Positions 1,962 through 11,747 of a stretch of DNA of 34,929 bases are shown piece by piece. The first letter of the stretch is position 1; the number at the start of each line of letters is the position of its first letter. Location: assembly GCA_029260655.1 (NCBI GenBank), contig JAJDCU010000029.1:1-34929 (forward strand). Reading direction: 5' to 3'. Source of the DNA: Phycisphaeraceae bacterium. Its GTDB lineage: Bacteria > Planctomycetota > Phycisphaerae > Phycisphaerales > Phycisphaeraceae. The position numbers and the translations under genes are program-made. Under the pieces are notes generated by a model that did no database searches, had not been told where the DNA came from, and saw nothing but the letters and a program-made list of their open reading frames with translations.

Positions 1962-5912
<3,951 letters not shown>

Positions 5913-6127: not shown

Positions 6128-7033
6128 CTAGATTTTTTCCGGGTTGTGAGGCGAATACCCGCGCATGACCCACCGCATCGGCAGGGCCCGGGGCCGATGC
6201 ACCACCTGATCCGTCTGAAACCGGACGACCCGATCGCCTCCAGGCGGGTCCTCGTCCGGGTCGCGGTCCCATCGGATCACCGCCCGGCCGGAAAGTTGCA
6301 GGGTCGAGCCGGTGTCGAAGTCGATGAATGCCAGCCCGGCGCGGGGGTCGGCCGTGAGGTTGCCCAGGGTCTGGAACATGTTGTTTCCCGCGTAGTCCGG
6401 GAAGGCCAGGGTACGGTCATCCGCCACGGTCACGAACCCGGGCATCCCCCCGCGGTGGGAGACGTCCGCCCCCCGGCCCGGTGCGTGGCTGGCGATGAAG
6501 AACGTGTCCGCCCGCCGGATCATCCGGCGCTGCTCATCGGTCAACCGCGAGCCGGTGACAGCTTCGGTTTGGGTCGAGGGCGGGTCGTATCCAATGACTT
6601 CGCGCTGCTGGATGTACTTAGGGCAGTTGCCAAACGCCTCGCGGATGTGGACGACAAGGCCGGCGCTGTCTTCCGTCACTTCGCCGTTGAAACGCAGCCG
6701 CCCGCGCGTGTTCAGGTCGATCGCCAGGAAACCGGCCGATGCACCTGGCACGAGCCCACCGCTTACCGGGTCGTTTTGTGCGGGATGCTTGTTGATCTGG
6801 ACCGTTTGTAGGCCCGGTGCGCGCACGAAACCCGGCTCGTCAGCTAGGACCGTCGCCCACATGTTTCCCTTGGCGTCCGCGGCCCCTGCGATAAGCAACG
6901 GCAACTGCGCCAGGTACTCATCTGCGCCGTTTGGTAATGCCGGGCTGATGATCCGGCCGACCTGCTGGGCCTGCGCACCGACCCCGGCCCGCTGCTGCAC
7001 AGCCAATTCGCCTTCGTGGAAAACGTCATCCAT
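6128..7033 (-). CDS. PNPOx-like FMN split-barrel protein
   Basis: 301 aa. The C-terminal half (about 190-290: FFIASHAPGRGADVSHRGG, FPDYAGNNMFQTLGNL, AGLAFIDFDTGSTLQLSG) has the pattern of the pyridoxamine 5'-phosphate oxidase-like FMN-binding split barrel, in the branch of flavin-nucleotide-binding proteins related to PNPOx. The N-terminal half (LPLLIAGAADAKGNMWATVLADEPGFV) reads as a second, related barrel repeat. CGGAGA precedes the ATG. It has no signal peptide, so it is cytoplasmic. It lies 128 nt downstream of trxA with a hairpin between, so it may be a separate transcript or an attenuated end of the redox operon. The substrate is unknown; members of this fold bind flavin, F420 or heme. 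Confidence 0.85.
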   Translation of the reverse strand: MDDVFHEGELAVQQRAGVGAQAQQVGRIISPALPNGADEYLAQLPLLIAGAADAKGNMWATVLADEPGFVRAPGLQTVQINKHPAQNDPVSGGLVPGASAGFLAIDLNTRGRLRFNGEVTEDSAGLVVHIREAFGNCPKYIQQREVIGYDPPSTQTEAVTGSRLTDEQRRMIRRADTFFIASHAPGRGADVSHRGGMPGFVTVADDRTLAFPDYAGNNMFQTLGNLTADPRAGLAFIDFDTGSTLQLSGRAVIRWDRDPDEDPPGGDRVVRFQTDQVVHRPRALPMRWVMRGYSPHNPEKI

Positions 7034-7115
7034 GGTCGTCTCCGAAAGTTTCGCCCAGGATCGGGTCCGCCTCGCAACGATTCTCTGATGATCCTATCGG
7101 TTTGGATGCGACGAA

Positions 7116-7151
7116 ACACCCGGGGCGGCGCGGTACGCCGGCCCCGGGTGT
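7116..7151 (-). terminator. Hairpin terminator after trxA
   Basis: Arms ACACCCGGGGC (7116-7126) and GCCCCGGGTGT (7141-7151) are perfectly complementary, and GGCG/CGCC extends the stem inward. On the minus strand it lies 10 nt after the trxA stop codon and is followed by TTTCGTC, a weak T-run. It probably ends or attenuates transcription before the PNPOx-like gene. Confidence 0.55.
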
Positions 7152-7161
7152 AGGAGGGTGT

Positions 7162-7506
7162 TCAGGCTGTCTTTACATCGTTTGAGGCTTCGATCGCCTC
7201 TGCCAGGGCTTCCTTGGACTGGTACCCGGCTAACTGCTTAACGACCTGGCCATCTCGAAAGATCACCAACGCCGGGATCGACCGGATGTCATAACGCTTG
7301 GCGAGCGCGGGGTTCGCATCGACATCGACCTTCCCGATCACCGCGCGGCCGGCGTAGTCGTCGGCCAACTGATCGATCACCGGCCCGATCGCCTTACACG
7401 GCGGGCACCAGTCGGCCCAGAAGTCGACCAGCACCGGGCCGGTCTGGTCCAGGACCTTCTCCTGGAAGTTGGATTCCGTCAGCTCAAGTGTGTTCTTGTC
7501 TGCCAT
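7162..7506 (-). CDS. trxA: Thioredoxin with CPPC active site
   Basis: 114 aa cytoplasmic thioredoxin. The start is the ATG giving MADKNTLEL, because AAAGGAG lies 8 nt upstream; the frame is open further upstream without a site. Fold landmarks are VLVDFWADW (buried Asp28), the redox motif W33-C-P-P-C37-K and the cis-proline Pro78 in RSIPALVIF. The usual WCGPC is replaced by WCPPC. It lies fourth in the minus-strand cluster AhpD-like, DUF6503-like, SDR, trx, 160 nt after the SDR gene with a paired palindrome in the gap. It could supply reducing equivalents to the CxxC of the AhpD-like protein, which is inference from the neighbourhood. It may not be the main housekeeping thioredoxin. Confidence 0.93.
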   Translation of the reverse strand: MADKNTLELTESNFQEKVLDQTGPVLVDFWADWCPPCKAIGPVIDQLADDYAGRAVIGKVDVDANPALAKRYDIRSIPALVIFRDGQVVKQLAGYQSKEALAEAIEASNDVKTA

Positions 7507-7558
7507 CGTGATGCTCCTTTCGTTGTGTGTGATTCGGTTAGGGGGTGATTTCATCCGT

Positions 7559-7636
7559 CCCTCAGCCCTCGGCTATGCCGGGGTATTCCGTGCGCTGTCC
7601 GTTCACCGATCCCCCGGCATAGCCGGGGGCTGAGGG
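7559..7636. repeat. REP-like paired palindromes, copy 1
   Basis: Two GC-rich units in opposite orientation. The left (7559-7583) reads CCCTCAG then CCCTCGGCTATGCCGGGG; the right (7611-7636) is CCCCCGGCATAGCCGGGGG then CTGAGGG. Each unit is itself palindromic around TAT/ATA and the two pair with each other, as in bacterial REP/BIME elements. It lies between the SDR and trxA genes. A second copy is at 8512-8585. Confidence 0.75.
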
Positions 7637-7650
7637 GGCAGAGGTCTAGG

Positions 7651-7677
7651 CCGCGGCGCTTCGTAGCTACGCCGCGG
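7651..7677. repeat. GC-rich hairpin spanning the SDR stop codon
   Basis: Arms CCGCGGCG (7651-7658) and CGCCGCGG (7670-7677) flank an 11-nt loop that contains the stop codon of the SDR gene (7667-7669, minus strand). The same arm sequence recurs at 32446-32466. It may be a REP-related element or a transcript-stabilising hairpin; no T-run follows. Confidence 0.5.
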
Positions 7678-8464
7678 ATGTCGCTTTCACTTCGCGCACG
7701 ATGCGAGAGACCCCGTCGCCGCCGGCGTCGACCCCGCCGTCGACCGGCAGGACCACCCCGGTGACCCAGTTGGCGCCCGCCAGGTACATCACCGCATCGG
7801 CGATGTCCTTGGGCACGCCGTATCGGCCAAGCGGCTGCATGTGGTTCAGCGAATCGAGTTGCTCGTCGGTCAGATCGCCATAGAGAGGCGTCGGCACCAC
7901 GCCCGGGGCGACCGCGTTGATGCGGATGTTTTCCGACGCGAGTTCTGACGACAGGTTCTTGGTCAGCGCGGTGATCCCGCCCTTGGCGGCGATCGGGGCG
8001 CTGGAGGGGACCCCCGCCACGCCGTTGAGCGTGAGGATCGTCCCGATGTTCACGATCGACCCGCCCCCGCCTTGTTTGCGGAATTGCCGGACGGCCGATT
8101 GGGACAGCACGAACGTCCCACGCAGGTAGCCCAGGAAACCGTCCAGTTCCTCGACCGTGTAGTCGGTGAACGGCTTCATGCTGAAGGTCCCCGCGTTATT
8201 GACCAGCAGGTCGACCCGGCCGAACCGCTTCACGGCGGCGTCGACGAGCTTGTCCGAGGTCTGCGCCTGGGTGATATCGCCCGCCACGATCTCGATCCGG
8301 TCGGGGTGTCCCAGTTGCTTCGCGGCGTTCTGTAGCTTCGATTCGGTCCGCCCGTTGAGGACGACGTTACCACCGGCGTCAAGAAAGGCCTGGGCGACGG
8401 CGAATCCGATCCCCGTCCCGGCGCCGGTGATGACGGCGGTCTGTGTGTTTGTGTGGGTGGTCAT
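7667..8464 (-). CDS. SDR-family protein lacking the catalytic tyrosine
   Basis: 265 aa classical-type short-chain dehydrogenase/reductase. Start MTTHTNTQ is chosen because AAGGA precedes it and the longer frame upstream runs into a repeat element. The nucleotide-binding motif TGAGTGIG is at 13-20, NNAG follows LLV near residue 92, and DGG is near the C-terminus (LPVDGGVDAGGD). The catalytic YxxxK motif reads P157-I-A-A-K161: Lys is kept but Tyr is Pro, and the preceding Ser region reads NIGTILT with no Ser. Classical SDR chemistry needs Tyr as acid/base, so I infer either a non-catalytic NAD(P)-binding protein or an unusual mechanism. It is third in the TetR-divergent cluster; its stop codon lies in a hairpin loop. 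Confidence 0.9.
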   Translation of the reverse strand: MTTHTNTQTAVITGAGTGIGFAVAQAFLDAGGNVVLNGRTESKLQNAAKQLGHPDRIEIVAGDITQAQTSDKLVDAAVKRFGRVDLLVNNAGTFSMKPFTDYTVEELDGFLGYLRGTFVLSQSAVRQFRKQGGGGSIVNIGTILTLNGVAGVPSSAPIAAKGGITALTKNLSSELASENIRINAVAPGVVPTPLYGDLTDEQLDSLNHMQPLGRYGVPKDIADAVMYLAGANWVTGVVLPVDGGVDAGGDGVSRIVREVKATSAA

Positions 8465-8511
8465 GGTAGGGGTCCTTGTGATTTTTTTTGTGGTGGTGTG
8501 TTCGGACTTTT

Positions 8512-8585
8512 CCCTCAGCCCCCGGCTCTGCCGGGGGATCATGTCCGCAGTTCATCGAACCCCCGGCAGAGCCGGGGGCTGAGGG
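8512..8585. repeat. REP-like paired palindromes, copy 2
   Basis: Left unit 8512-8537 contains CCCCCGGCTCTGCCGGGGG after CCCTCAG; right unit 8560-8585 is its inverted copy ending CTGAGGG, with a 22-nt spacer. It belongs to the same family as 7559-7636, with TCT/AGA instead of TAT/ATA at the unit centre, a compensated change. It lies between the DUF6503-like gene and the SDR gene. Confidence 0.8.
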
Positions 8586-8598
8586 TAGAGTGGAGGGG

Positions 8599-9420
8599 TT
8601 AATCCGCGTGCTTGGTTCCGTGGATCACCGGCTTGCCGGGGGCGGCGAAGATCGACGCGTCCGGGACGGCCTGGGAGAACGTCACGTCCTTGACGTAATA
8701 GGTGTTGCCATCGCCTTGGAGCTCGCCGTCGGCCCAGCCGTAGAACGTCAGTTTGCTCGGCACCAGCAGGCCGCCGGCGTCCTGCCATTGATTAAACACC
8801 AGTGCCTTGCGCGGCAGTTCCTCGATCGGGGTGTCGCCGTTGACTTCGGCGCTGGTCGGGACGAAGTCGATCATGTGCAGGCGGTGGGTCTCGGCATCGA
8901 TGTAGAGGATATAGTCGTCCTCGGGGGTATCGCCGATGCCTTGGGGATAGCTGATCGCCACGAGGTCGTACGCACGTCCCTGAAATGTCTTGTTGCCCAG
9001 GTCGCGTGACTGCACGCCGGGGTCGGCGAAGACGAACGGCATGGCGATAAAGTAGAAGTTGCCGGATTCGAAGAACCGCGGCGGGATGCCAAGCGTTTCG
9101 ACGTTCGGGACAGCCCAGGCGTCTTCACCGTTAAGCCCGGAGGTAAAATCCTTGCCGTGCGTCAGGTGCCGACGGTTTTGCAGATCGGTGGACTGGGTGA
9201 AGTCAAACGGGGCCTTTGCGCCAAGCGGGAAGTCCCTGGTCGCGTAGTCCAGCCGGCCGTAGGATTGCCATGTCTCCAGCCCGCCGTGTGCTTCGATAGC
9301 CTGGGCAAGCGCCTCGGATCGGGGCGCCGTGTCCGCGGTGGCGGGGGTCGTGAGCAGGTTCAAGAACGCCATCTGCAGCAGTGACGCCAGCACCAGCTTG
9401 TTAAGTCCGTTCGTGTTCAT
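8599..9420 (-). CDS. Secreted DUF6503-like protein
   Basis: 273 aa with an N-terminal signal peptide (hydrophobic residues about 8-25, cleavage near ATADT). The mature protein starts with ALAQAIEAHGGLETWQSYGRLDY, a pattern typical of LolA-like or DUF6503-type secreted proteins. Further resemblance is in FYFIAMPFVFADPGV, EDDYILYIDAETHRLHMIDF and LVPSKLTFYGW. The fold is expected to be a curved beta-sheet carrier for lipids or other hydrophobic molecules in the periplasm; this is inference from the family pattern. A good AAAGGA lies upstream of the ATG. It follows the AhpD-like gene after 46 nt, so the two are probably co-transcribed from the TetR-controlled promoter. Its function is unknown. 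Confidence 0.75.
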   Translation of the reverse strand: MNTNGLNKLVLASLLQMAFLNLLTTPATADTAPRSEALAQAIEAHGGLETWQSYGRLDYATRDFPLGAKAPFDFTQSTDLQNRRHLTHGKDFTSGLNGEDAWAVPNVETLGIPPRFFESGNFYFIAMPFVFADPGVQSRDLGNKTFQGRAYDLVAISYPQGIGDTPEDDYILYIDAETHRLHMIDFVPTSAEVNGDTPIEELPRKALVFNQWQDAGGLLVPSKLTFYGWADGELQGDGNTYYVKDVTFSQAVPDASIFAAPGKPVIHGTKHAD

Positions 9421-9466
9421 GATTGTTTCCTTTATTGAGGGTTTGCCTGTGGTGGTTCTTGTCGGG

Positions 9467-10018
9467 TTAGGCGTTCACGGCCTGAGCGCTTGGGACAAAG
9501 GGGAAGTCGACCTCGGTCTGGGCGACGTGGTTGAAGTAGTTCGTGAAGATGTTCTTGAGCGTCTCGGCGAAGACCTCGACGACCTGTTCGTCGGTATACC
9601 CGGCATCTCTCACGGCCTGGAGCTGCTCGTCCGTGACGAACCCTTCGCGTGAGTTGATCGCCAGGGCGAAGTTAAGTGCGGCTTGCGTGGCGGGGTCGGC
9701 GGATTGTCCGCGTAGGTTGGCGGCGAGTTCGTCATCGGGCAGGCCGTGCTTAGCGCCGATGGCGGTGTGCGCCGAGGAGCAGTAGTCACAGTTGTTTGCT
9801 CCCGCCAGCGCCACGGCGATCTGCTCCCTAAGCGAAGCGGGGAGTGTGCCGGCGCCCAAGGCTTTGCCGAGCCCCAGGAAGCCTTCGAGCACGGCCGGGG
9901 AGACGGCGAGGGTTTTATAGATGTTCGGCGCGAAGCCGACGGCCTTCTGGACGCCTTCAAGGATCTGCTTGCTTTTGCCTGGCGCCTGATCGATTTCGAC
10001 GGGTTGGATGCGTGGCAT
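9467..10018 (-). CDS. Carboxymuconolactone decarboxylase / AhpD-like protein
   Basis: 183 aa all-helical protein of the CMD/AhpD family. The active-site pattern is complete: Glu65 (REQIAVAL), Cys77-x2-Cys80-x3-His84 (NCDYCSSAH), as in peroxidase-related AhpD-like proteins that relay reducing power or reduce hydroperoxides. The C-terminal part (SREGFVTDEQLQAVRDAGYTDEQVVEVFAET) is the usual helical pair. AGAGAG precedes the ATG. It is the first gene of the minus-strand cluster and sits directly downstream of the promoter carrying the TetR-type palindrome, so it is probably the main regulated gene. A true carboxymuconolactone decarboxylase is unlikely because of the CxxC. Confidence 0.92.
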   Translation of the reverse strand: MPRIQPVEIDQAPGKSKQILEGVQKAVGFAPNIYKTLAVSPAVLEGFLGLGKALGAGTLPASLREQIAVALAGANNCDYCSSAHTAIGAKHGLPDDELAANLRGQSADPATQAALNFALAINSREGFVTDEQLQAVRDAGYTDEQVVEVFAETLKNIFTNYFNHVAQTEVDFPFVPSAQAVNA

Positions 10019-10098
10019 GGTTTGCTCTCTTTTGCTTATGACCCGTAGGTCGGTTTCGTGGTGCTGGCGGGACGTCCCCGTTCACTGCCATGACAACA

Positions 10099-10126
10099 AC
10101 TATACAGATCTGTCTATTCTAGTCAA
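10099..10126 (-). promoter_or_regulatory. Sigma70-type promoter of the redox operon
   Basis: Read on the minus strand: -35 TTGACT (10126-10121), a 16-nt spacer, and -10 TATAGT (10104-10099). It is upstream of the AhpD-like gene, giving a leader of about 75 nt. The spacer and the -10 element are covered by the palindrome at 10101-10116. Confidence 0.7.
10101..10116. promoter_or_regulatory. Predicted TetR-family operator
   Basis: TATACAGATCTGTCTA is a 16-bp palindrome with one mismatched pair, of the TAGAC-N6-GTCTA style typical of TetR-family operators. It overlaps the -10 element of the minus-strand operon and lies in the region divergent to a tetR-like gene, so binding would block that promoter. 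Confidence 0.7.
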
Positions 10127-10257
10127 CCCCTATTTCTCGAAAATTAGAGATAAATACGAAAAATAGATTGAAAAAATCCAAAAATGGACGATATTGGCCT
10201 TTTAATGGCCATACAATGTCGTATACTATCCCGTGGGCTTCCCCAAGAGGGCCTTTT

Positions 10258-10839
10258 ATGTCCAAGAAACGCGATCAACTCGTTGAGACGGCGTTGGAGC
10301 TGTTCAGCCAGCACGGCTATCACGCCACCGGGATCGACAAGATCCTGGAGGCCGCGGGCGTTGCCAAGATGACCATGTACAAGCACTTCCGCTCGAAGGA
10401 GGAGCTGATCCTCGCGGCCTTGCGGCTTCGTGATGAGCGGTGGCGTAACCAGTTCATGCGCAGCGTCGAGCAGCAGGCCAAAGACCCCCGGGGCAGGCTC
10501 ATGGCGATATTCGACCTGCTTGGGCAGTGGTTTGCCAGCGCGGATTTCTGCGGCTGCCTGTTCATCAACGCCTCGGCCGAGTTCGGCGACCTGGCGGATC
10601 CGATCCACGCCGCCAGCGCCGAGCACAAACGGCTGGTCATGAAGTACGTCCGTGACTTGGCTGAGCAGGCGGGGGCTCCGGAGCCGGGCGTCCTGGCGGA
10701 ACAGATCACGCTTCTGATGGAGGGCGCGATCGTCCACACCCAGATATGCGGGCACGACAACAAGGCCTGCGCCGCGCTCGCCGCCAAGCGTGCCGCCAAG
10801 GTACTGATCGACCACGCGCTCGCCGCCGCGGTGCGCTGA
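10258..10839 (+). CDS. TetR-family transcriptional regulator
   Basis: 193 aa. The ATG giving MSKKRDQLVETALELF is preferred because AAGAGG lies just upstream; an earlier in-frame ATG at 10168 has none. Residues about 5-55 are a standard TetR helix-turn-helix domain (FSQHGYHATGIDKILEAAGVAKMTMYKHFRSKEELI). The C-terminal ligand domain resembles regulators of the AcrR/NemR type (CGCLFINASAEF, ITLLMEGAIV). It is divergent from the AhpD-like operon; the 239-nt intergenic region holds the operator-like palindrome and a TATACT -10-like hexamer at 10222-10227 for this gene. The Cys pair in DFCGCLF (CxC) could in principle sense electrophiles, but this is speculation. Confidence 0.93.
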   Translation: MSKKRDQLVETALELFSQHGYHATGIDKILEAAGVAKMTMYKHFRSKEELILAALRLRDERWRNQFMRSVEQQAKDPRGRLMAIFDLLGQWFASADFCGCLFINASAEFGDLADPIHAASAEHKRLVMKYVRDLAEQAGAPEPGVLAEQITLLMEGAIVHTQICGHDNKACAALAAKRAAKVLIDHALAAAVR

Positions 10840-10917
10840 CTGGCTCGTGCAATGTAAATGTGTTACATGAGGGAATCGGCTTGCCGAGGGGGCAGGTCGT
10901 GGCTAACTTGATTGCCC

Positions 10918-10957
10918 CCCGGATGTACCCCCCGGATGTACCCCCCGGATATTCCCC
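10918..10957. repeat. Tandem 13-nt repeat
   Basis: GGATGTACCCCCC occurs twice head to tail, preceded by a partial C-run unit and followed by a variant GGATATTCCCCCCC. It lies in the leader between the tetR gene and the isomerase-like gene, about 45 nt upstream of the latter's ATG. It could arise from slippage at the C-runs. Confidence 0.7.
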
Positions 10958-11003
10958 CCCGGTTTCCCGCCGGTTATTACCCTTGCTTTCCCCGGAGAAT
11001 CCC

Positions 11004-11747
11004 ATGCCCCTGCCCATCGGTCTGCAACTTTACACCGTCCGCGATGCGCTCGCTAAGGACGCCGACGCGGCGCTGGCGCAGGTCGCGTCCATCGGGTACC
11101 GATACGTCGAGCTCGCCGGGCTGTACGGCAAGTCGCCCGAGCAGATCAAGGCCCTGCTGGATAAGCACGGCCTGACCGCCATCTCGGCGCACGAGCCGGT
11201 CGATTGCCTGCTGAACGACCTGACCGACGTGATCGTGCGTGCCAAGCTCTTTGGTTACCGGTACGTCACCTGCCCGTATCTCGACGAGGCTCAGCGCGAC
11301 GCGGGCTACCGCCAGCTCTCCCGCCAGCTCGGCGAGATCGCCAGCGAACTGTTATCCGCGGGTCTTACCCTGTGCTACCACAACCACGACTTCGAATGGC
11401 TCCCCGCCGAGGACGGCCATCGCGGTATCGACATCCTCTTCGATGGCACGGACCTCAACTGTGAACTCGACGTCTACTGGGCCGCCAAGGCCGGCGACGA
11501 CCCGCTTGACTGGATGCAGAAACTCTCCGGCCGGCTGCCGATCCTGCACATGAAGGACATGCACGACACCCCGGAGCGCGGCTTCGCCGAGGTCGGCACC
11601 GGGATGATCGATTTCCCCGCGATCCTCGACGCCGCCGAAAAAGTTGGCGTGAAGTACCTCGTCGTCGAGCAGGACAGCAACTGGAAAGACAGCCCGATGG
11701 AGTCGGCGCGGGTGGGCTTAGAGAATCTCGGCGGGATGCTGGTGTGA
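11004..11747 (+). CDS. Sugar phosphate isomerase/epimerase-like TIM barrel
   Basis: 247 aa. Start MPLPIGLQLYTVRDAL is chosen because GGAG sits 7 nt upstream; the frame is open much further upstream but that part overlaps tetR. It belongs to the xylose isomerase-like TIM-barrel superfamily (AP endonuclease 2 fold). Recognisable strands and metal ligands: YVELAGLYG (Glu), LCYHNHDFEW (His), NCELDVYWAA (Glu/Asp), LPILHMKDMHD (His/Asp), EVGTGMIDFPAIL, YLVVEQDSN (Glu). Members isomerise or epimerise free sugars or inositols using a divalent cation. No Tat or Sec signal, so cytoplasmic. A decayed relative of its 3' end lies at 12310-12531, beyond a small membrane-protein gene on the other strand. 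Confidence 0.9.
   Translation: MPLPIGLQLYTVRDALAKDADAALAQVASIGYRYVELAGLYGKSPEQIKALLDKHGLTAISAHEPVDCLLNDLTDVIVRAKLFGYRYVTCPYLDEAQRDAGYRQLSRQLGEIASELLSAGLTLCYHNHDFEWLPAEDGHRGIDILFDGTDLNCELDVYWAAKAGDDPLDWMQKLSGRLPILHMKDMHDTPERGFAEVGTGMIDFPAILDAAEKVGVKYLVVEQDSNWKDSPMESARVGLENLGGMLV

Follow-up and report, generated by a model that had tools for sequence, protein, structure and literature searches.

The closest described relatives of the locus considered here are the alt/TTG thiosulfinate-tolerance clusters of Pseudomonas fluorescens PfAR-1, Pantoea and Burkholderia (PMC7119367, PMC13178969, PMC12306174) and the nemR-nemA-gloA genes of Escherichia coli (PMC7464077; 4yze). The Pantoea alt clusters encode an alkene reductase (altA), a short-chain dehydrogenase/reductase (SDR; altB), a DsbA family protein (altC), a carboxymuconolactone decarboxylase (CMD) family protein (altE) and a TetR regulator (altR) (PMC8417944), and AltR is relieved by thiosulfinates via Cys100, a residue that is essential for the response (PMC13178969). 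In PfAR-1 clones, insertions in ahpD had the strongest effect on allicin sensitivity and insertions in trx also raised sensitivity (PMC7119367), and NemR responds to HOCl through Cys106 and to electrophiles through Cys21/Cys116 (PMC7464077). We have analysed a 34,929 nt stretch of a Phycisphaeraceae bacterium (assembly GCA_029260655.1, contig JAJDCU010000029.1), referred to throughout as the window, in which positions 6128–10839 hold five minus-strand genes and a divergent gene for a TetR-family regulator. These data show that the gene set is a recurring, modular neighbourhood, and on balance we favour, by analogy, its being a TetR thiol-switch locus directed against electrophile or disulfide stress.

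The features of the locus, together with the neighbouring gene at 11004–11747, which we added as a seventh protein, are as follows.

6128–7033, minus strand: PNPOx-like protein of 301 amino acids with two predicted split barrels in tandem (PF01243, PNPOx_N, 4.1e-12)
7116–7151, minus strand: 16-bp hairpin 3' of the thioredoxin gene (−33.1 kcal/mol, z −4.8)
7162–7506, minus strand: thioredoxin with a CPPC active site (PF00085, 1.5e-32; TIGR01068 above cut-off)
7559–7636, no strand: REP-like element, inverted pair, in the SDR/thioredoxin gap (repeat and hairpin analysis)
7667–8464, minus strand: SDR without the catalytic Tyr (PIAAK), Lys161 retained (SDR Pfam, 1.7e-47)
8506–8591, no strand: REP-like element, second inverted pair, in the gap between the LolA/LolB-fold gene and the SDR gene (repeat and hairpin analysis)
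8599–9420, minus strand: protein with a LolA/LolB-like fold, probably secreted, earlier called 'DUF6503-like' (predicted model; hydrophobic N-terminus)
9467–10018, minus strand: AhpD-like CMD family protein with E65, C77-D-Y-C80 and H84 (PF02627, 3.6e-15)
10099–10126, minus strand: AhpD promoter, sigma-70-like, TTGACT-16-TATAGT (predicted from sequence)
10101–10116, no strand: candidate palindromic operator TAGACAGATCTGTATA, spanning the −35/−10 gap and covering the −10
10258–10839, plus strand: TetR-family regulator with Cys100, TetR_N and TetR_C_13 (TetR Pfam, 6.7e-19)
11004–11747, plus strand: TIM barrel resembling sugar-phosphate isomerases, encoded 3' of the TetR gene (PF01261)

The reading frames, strands and coordinates of the five minus-strand genes and of the divergent TetR gene given in a first-pass annotation of this DNA were borne out, as were, by the Pfam matches listed, its AhpD-like, thioredoxin and TetR assignments. 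The start of the SDR gene is an in-frame ATG at 8464, inside a longer open reading frame that reaches 8542.

Comparison with the alt/TTG and nemRA systems

The first-pass annotation could not name the combination of genes, and in doing so overlooked the alt/TTG clusters. These share with the locus a TetR protein with Cys100, a residue that is common to the wider TetR type, and an inverted-repeat operator; the AhpD/CMD (altE), SDR (altB) and thioredoxin classes, compared at family level only, are found in both, and gene order is modular and variable in both. In place of DsbA, old yellow enzyme, KefC/KefF, Gor and OsmC, the locus has the LolA/LolB-fold secreted and PNPOx-like proteins. The common tetR, ahpD/altE, sdr/altB and trx classes (PMC7119367, PMC8417944) would be expected if this were a true alt/TTG cluster specific for allicin-like compounds. 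However, DsbA (altC), old yellow enzyme (altA), KefC, OsmC and Gor are all absent from the seven proteins of 6128–11747, and the operator is unlike the altR box quoted in PMC13178969, so that we consider this explanation very improbable. The locus works like the alt and nemRA systems at most by analogy, and we do not class it as an alt cluster.

As in nemRA, the TetR repressor carries a Cys at the Cys106 position. In contrast, nemR is co-transcribed with its targets, whereas TetR and its putative targets are divergent here; neither NemA nor GloA is found among the same seven proteins, and a NemA-like reductase lies beside AhpD in only two relatives (L200 and L201). Alt-like clusters occur in diverse bacteria according to PMC12306174, in the main text of which the string 'Planctomycet' does not occur, and our literature search returned nothing on this gene set in planctomycetes.

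Conservation of the neighbourhood

We surveyed 301 genomes of the order, in 60 of which AhpD was found at E 1e-40 or better, and counted partner genes within 4 kb of AhpD homologues at 68 places. A TetR gene of the same type was present at 38 of the 68, thioredoxin at 25, an alpha/beta hydrolase at 16, the same SDR, taken as 60% identity or above, at ten and a PNPOx protein at six, with YHS, isochorismatase-like and LolA/LolB-fold genes at five, three and two places respectively. An internal control gave 37 TetR hits at 1.5 kb or less from AhpD (200,186 bp) against a single hit beyond 3.5 kb (379,402 bp), and the linkage of TetR to AhpD is therefore above chance. The gene-neighbourhood search proposed in the first-pass annotation thus shows that the set does recur in relatives, in reshuffled combinations.

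Within the genus (six genomes), TetR is divergent from a set that includes the LolA/LolB-fold gene and thioredoxin in five; at these five loci AhpD is present in two, the SDR in three and PNPOx in four, the locus without PNPOx being one that stops at a contig end. The isomerase-like gene adjoins TetR in five of the six. Elsewhere the order AhpD-SDR-PNPOx-thioredoxin is found at three places in two genomes (L195, L199 and L204), with a PNPOx protein of a different subfamily, and in a Planctomycetota record (L044) TetR, SDR, thioredoxin and AhpD all lie on one strand. At L201 genes for TetR, AhpD, an old yellow enzyme, an SDR, a hydrolase and a PNPOx protein come in that order; this old yellow enzyme scores 359.6 bits against NF007899 (the N-ethylmaleimide reductase model), short of the cut-off of 403, and a copy 98% identical to it lies beside AhpD at L200.

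We also inspected six plasmid regions with existing annotation, four anchored on AhpD and two on TetR. Clear partners were found in two of the four AhpD-anchored regions, both from beyond the phylum, namely in Deinococcus, where the genes divergent from TetR are YceI, a hypothetical one, CMD, trxB, trxA and CMD, and in Novosphingobium, where a LysR gene is divergent from AhpD, PNPOx and an NTF2-like gene. In the Rhizobium region a PNPOx-family protein adjoins AhpD, and the Methylorubrum region has none of the partner genes. Of the TetR-anchored regions, in that of Ruegeria the regulator gene diverges from an NTF2-like/PNPOx group of genes, and that of Sinorhizobium has none of the set.

The TetR regulator and its candidate operator

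Cys100 of the TetR protein is kept in all 46 homologues, the window protein included, and Cys98 is variable. Cys100 aligns with NemR Cys106 in 4yze (chain numbering offset by two), and the protein combines a TetR_N domain with a C-terminal domain bearing this Cys106 equivalent, in line with NemR, to which its overall similarity is weak (E 1.3e-10, residues 5–131). On this alignment, Cys100 is a probable thiol sensor.

A matrix for the candidate operator was built from six sites and found comparable sites (p≤0.05 against Markov shuffles) in 29 of 32 held-out TetR/divergent-gene regions, which are related and not independent; the three failures were L226, L227 and L231. Such an operator precedes AhpD at 31 of 37 places with TetR nearby, as opposed to nine of 31 without. 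At the two-gene locus L022 (thioredoxin-AhpD) it was found before neither gene. We also attempted to define a regulon by a genome-wide operator scan and abandoned it, as the one-mismatch pattern gave 162+167 matches against 184+187 in the backwards control, i.e. no enrichment.

The AhpD-like protein and thioredoxin

The catalytic relay of AhpD consists of Glu, CxxC and His. The corresponding Glu65, Cys77, Cys80 and His84 are invariant in all 68 homologues. The protein passes the AhpD core-domain model TIGR00778 (50.8 against a cut-off of 27.8) and falls below the cut-off of TIGR01926 (peroxidase-related enzyme) with 76 bits against 81.8. It belongs to the same CMD family as the TIGR01926 proteins and 6e8l and has the same Glu, CxxC and His, but, unlike them, carries Tyr79 between the two Cys residues. 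A TGA codon was flagged in a few homologues, and selenocysteine was considered and rejected, the case shown (L237) lying at the C-terminal end and not at the CxxC.

The AhpD of Mycobacterium tuberculosis uses a lipoyl-type reductant. No such reductant is indicated for the window protein, to which thioredoxin is linked instead. The earlier suggestion that this thioredoxin could reduce the AhpD-like CxxC gains from the linkage, both at the 25 places noted above and in the trxB-trxA pair beside CMD genes in Deinococcus. Thioredoxin probably recycles AhpD, as judged from gene linkage, and a thioredoxin reductase is encoded on another contig of the same assembly, but AhpD reduction cannot be the whole function of the set because three genus genomes carry it without AhpD.

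The Tyr-less SDR

The first-pass description of the SDR as degenerate was right. At the YxxxK motif the Tyr site is Pro157 and Lys161 is kept, and the Ser site is Thr142, so that the protein lacks the catalytic Tyr of a classical SDR dehydrogenase. All 12 SDRs of the order, including that of the window, have Pro at the Tyr site. Among wider relatives we kept 80 loci of 581 confirmed candidates and left out L088, which has no SDR open reading frame; none of the resulting 79 has Tyr at the site, which is Ala in 53, Pro in 21, Ser in three and Gln in two, and all 79 have the Lys. These sequences (L041–L120) constitute an SDR subfamily that lacks the Tyr, usually with Ala or Pro in its place, and that is spread across several phyla. 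The SDR relatives include named Phycisphaerales and Planctomycetota records, which together with the gene set point to a planctomycete order. The solved structure 3un1 ('Probable oxidoreductase') likewise keeps the Lys and has the Tyr replaced, by Ala where the window SDR has Pro. Loss of the Tyr is no proof of loss of activity, since a FabG without the triad was reported as still active (PMC7973133).

These enzyme classes bear on an alternative in which the locus is a catabolic operon, where CMD, SDR and, in relatives, the alpha/beta hydrolase would break down some organic compound from the environment, the same substrate that TetR would sense. The best NCBIfam matches of the recurrent hydrolase are haloalkane dehalogenases, below cut-off, isochorismatase-like and YHS proteins occur in a few loci, and the debrominase Bmp8 (6ohi) is among the relatives of AhpD by sequence, all of which would suit such an operon. 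However, the invariant AhpD-type residues, the frequency of thioredoxin and the SDR without its catalytic Tyr all argue against it, as do the recurrent neighbours that can be named, which are TetR, thioredoxin, hydrolase, SDR, PNPOx, YHS/isochorismatase-like, LolA/LolB-fold and isomerase-like proteins and TruB (the unlabelled clusters, annotated in part, being mostly reading frames antisense to named ones). A catabolic role therefore appears unlikely to us.

The LolA/LolB-fold and PNPOx-like proteins

The product of 8599–9420 had been called DUF6503-like, a label that was not confirmed, as Pfam gave no family at E up to 10, a search in which weak matches can be filtered out. An AlphaFold model built from 12 homologues (pLDDT 82) matched 4z48 (DUF1329) with a Z score of 13.5 over 194 residues and 3buu with 13.4 over 196 residues (Foldseek E 5.9e-07), these Z scores being a re-ranking within Foldseek's own hits. 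The model supports a LolA/LolB superfamily fold, and the hydrophobic N-terminus indicates that the protein is probably secreted. For the earlier idea of a secreted hydrophobic-ligand-type protein, the support is thus that of the fold.

The PNPOx-like protein, previously termed an FMN protein, does belong to the PNPOx_N family, and its model (pLDDT 83) shows two split-barrel domains in tandem. As to the flavin part of that description, Foldseek matches to the model span flavin, F420 and heme split-barrel proteins and so do not fix the cofactor.

Proposed function of the locus

Electrophile or thiol stress fits the locus because Cys100 is of the NemR/AltR type, a NemA-like reductase accompanies AhpD in two relatives and the gene classes resemble alt/TTG. 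Of the earlier proposal of an electrophile or peroxide detoxification system it is this part that is supported, and joint control of the five genes is at most putative. From these observations we infer the nature of the inducer, repression, the flow of electrons from thioredoxin to AhpD and all enzymatic activities in the following scheme. A TetR dimer bound to the operator in the AhpD promoter would block that promoter, and a thiol-reactive chemical, be it an electrophile or a thiosulfinate-type or hypohalous oxidant, would modify Cys100 and release TetR. AhpD would then reduce the oxidant or a damaged product via its CxxC and Glu/His relay and be reduced in turn by thioredoxin, which would receive its electrons from the thioredoxin reductase of the cell. 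Beyond the cytoplasm, the LolA/LolB-fold protein, once exported, might bind some hydrophobic compound. Accessory roles, as redox or binding partners, may fall to the PNPOx-like protein and to the SDR without Tyr. If so, AltR/NemR-like thiol-switch loci, which in the papers cited are mainly proteobacterial, would extend to a planctomycete order, with an operator and a sensor Cys that can be tested and with a functional setting for the Tyr-less SDR subfamily and the LolA/LolB-fold protein.

Several observations weigh against this proposal. There is no such TetR gene near AhpD at 30 of the 68 places, the complete five-gene set was seen once, in the window only, and AhpD is not at the locus in three of the five genus genomes that carry it. 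Among the listed places, 14 Pseudomonas AhpD loci (L293–L305 and L310) show no AhpD-SDR-thioredoxin-TetR module. The Cys is also retained in less related TetR proteins, e.g. 3g7r and 3jsj, and Cys100 may therefore be structural. In the assembly, which is 95% complete, the window thioredoxin is the only canonical one (>100 bits) found, and it could therefore be the housekeeping protein. In addition, a search of the window for the operator before the LolA/LolB-fold, SDR, thioredoxin and PNPOx genes found none, and hairpins in three gaps could stop transcription before SDR, thioredoxin or PNPOx.

The last of these points would be accounted for if the genes were not one unit, with TetR controlling AhpD and the LolA/LolB-fold gene only, and with SDR, thioredoxin (perhaps housekeeping, in keeping with its being the single canonical copy) and PNPOx transcribed separately. 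The three gaps that follow the LolA/LolB-fold gene hold hairpins of −72, −66 and −33 kcal/mol, the first lying before SDR, the second between SDR and thioredoxin and the third (7116–7151) being terminator-like, though its T run is short and it is not among the terminator matches. The first two, however, derive from REP-like elements with approximately 50 genome copies and are not dedicated terminators; the same gene classes co-occur in other families in different orders, and four genus genomes (G002, G003, G004 and G005) carry a second thioredoxin (>100 bits) elsewhere. Separate units of this kind we regard as rather improbable. Even so, because the operator is before AhpD only and strong hairpins lie between the genes, one TetR-controlled unit of five genes, as first annotated, was not confirmed and is at most putative.

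The thiol-switch proposal could be carried further, to a reshufflable disulfide/electrophile-stress system of a planctomycete order in which the TetR switch and its operator are common across families, the conserved Tyr-less SDR is an NAD(P)H-binding partner or sensor and not a dehydrogenase, and the exported LolA/LolB-fold carrier clears a hydrophobic toxic product; we would hold this extended form to be doubtful.

Repeats in the region

The REP-like element CCCCCGGCNNNGCCGGGGGCTGAGGG is GC-rich and has 50 matches in the genome at three or fewer mismatches, against 0 in the backwards control. Its inverted pairs (7559–7636 and 8506–8591) stand on both sides of the SDR gene, and the genome has three Y1 transposase-family places. 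Between TetR and the isomerase-like gene lies a 13-bp tandem repeat, CCCCCCGGATGTA, in 3.5 copies (10915–10959), and heptamer arrays, (TGTTCGA)4.4 and (ACATCGC)4, are found at 4951–5017 within the dnaE-like frame 1962–5912.

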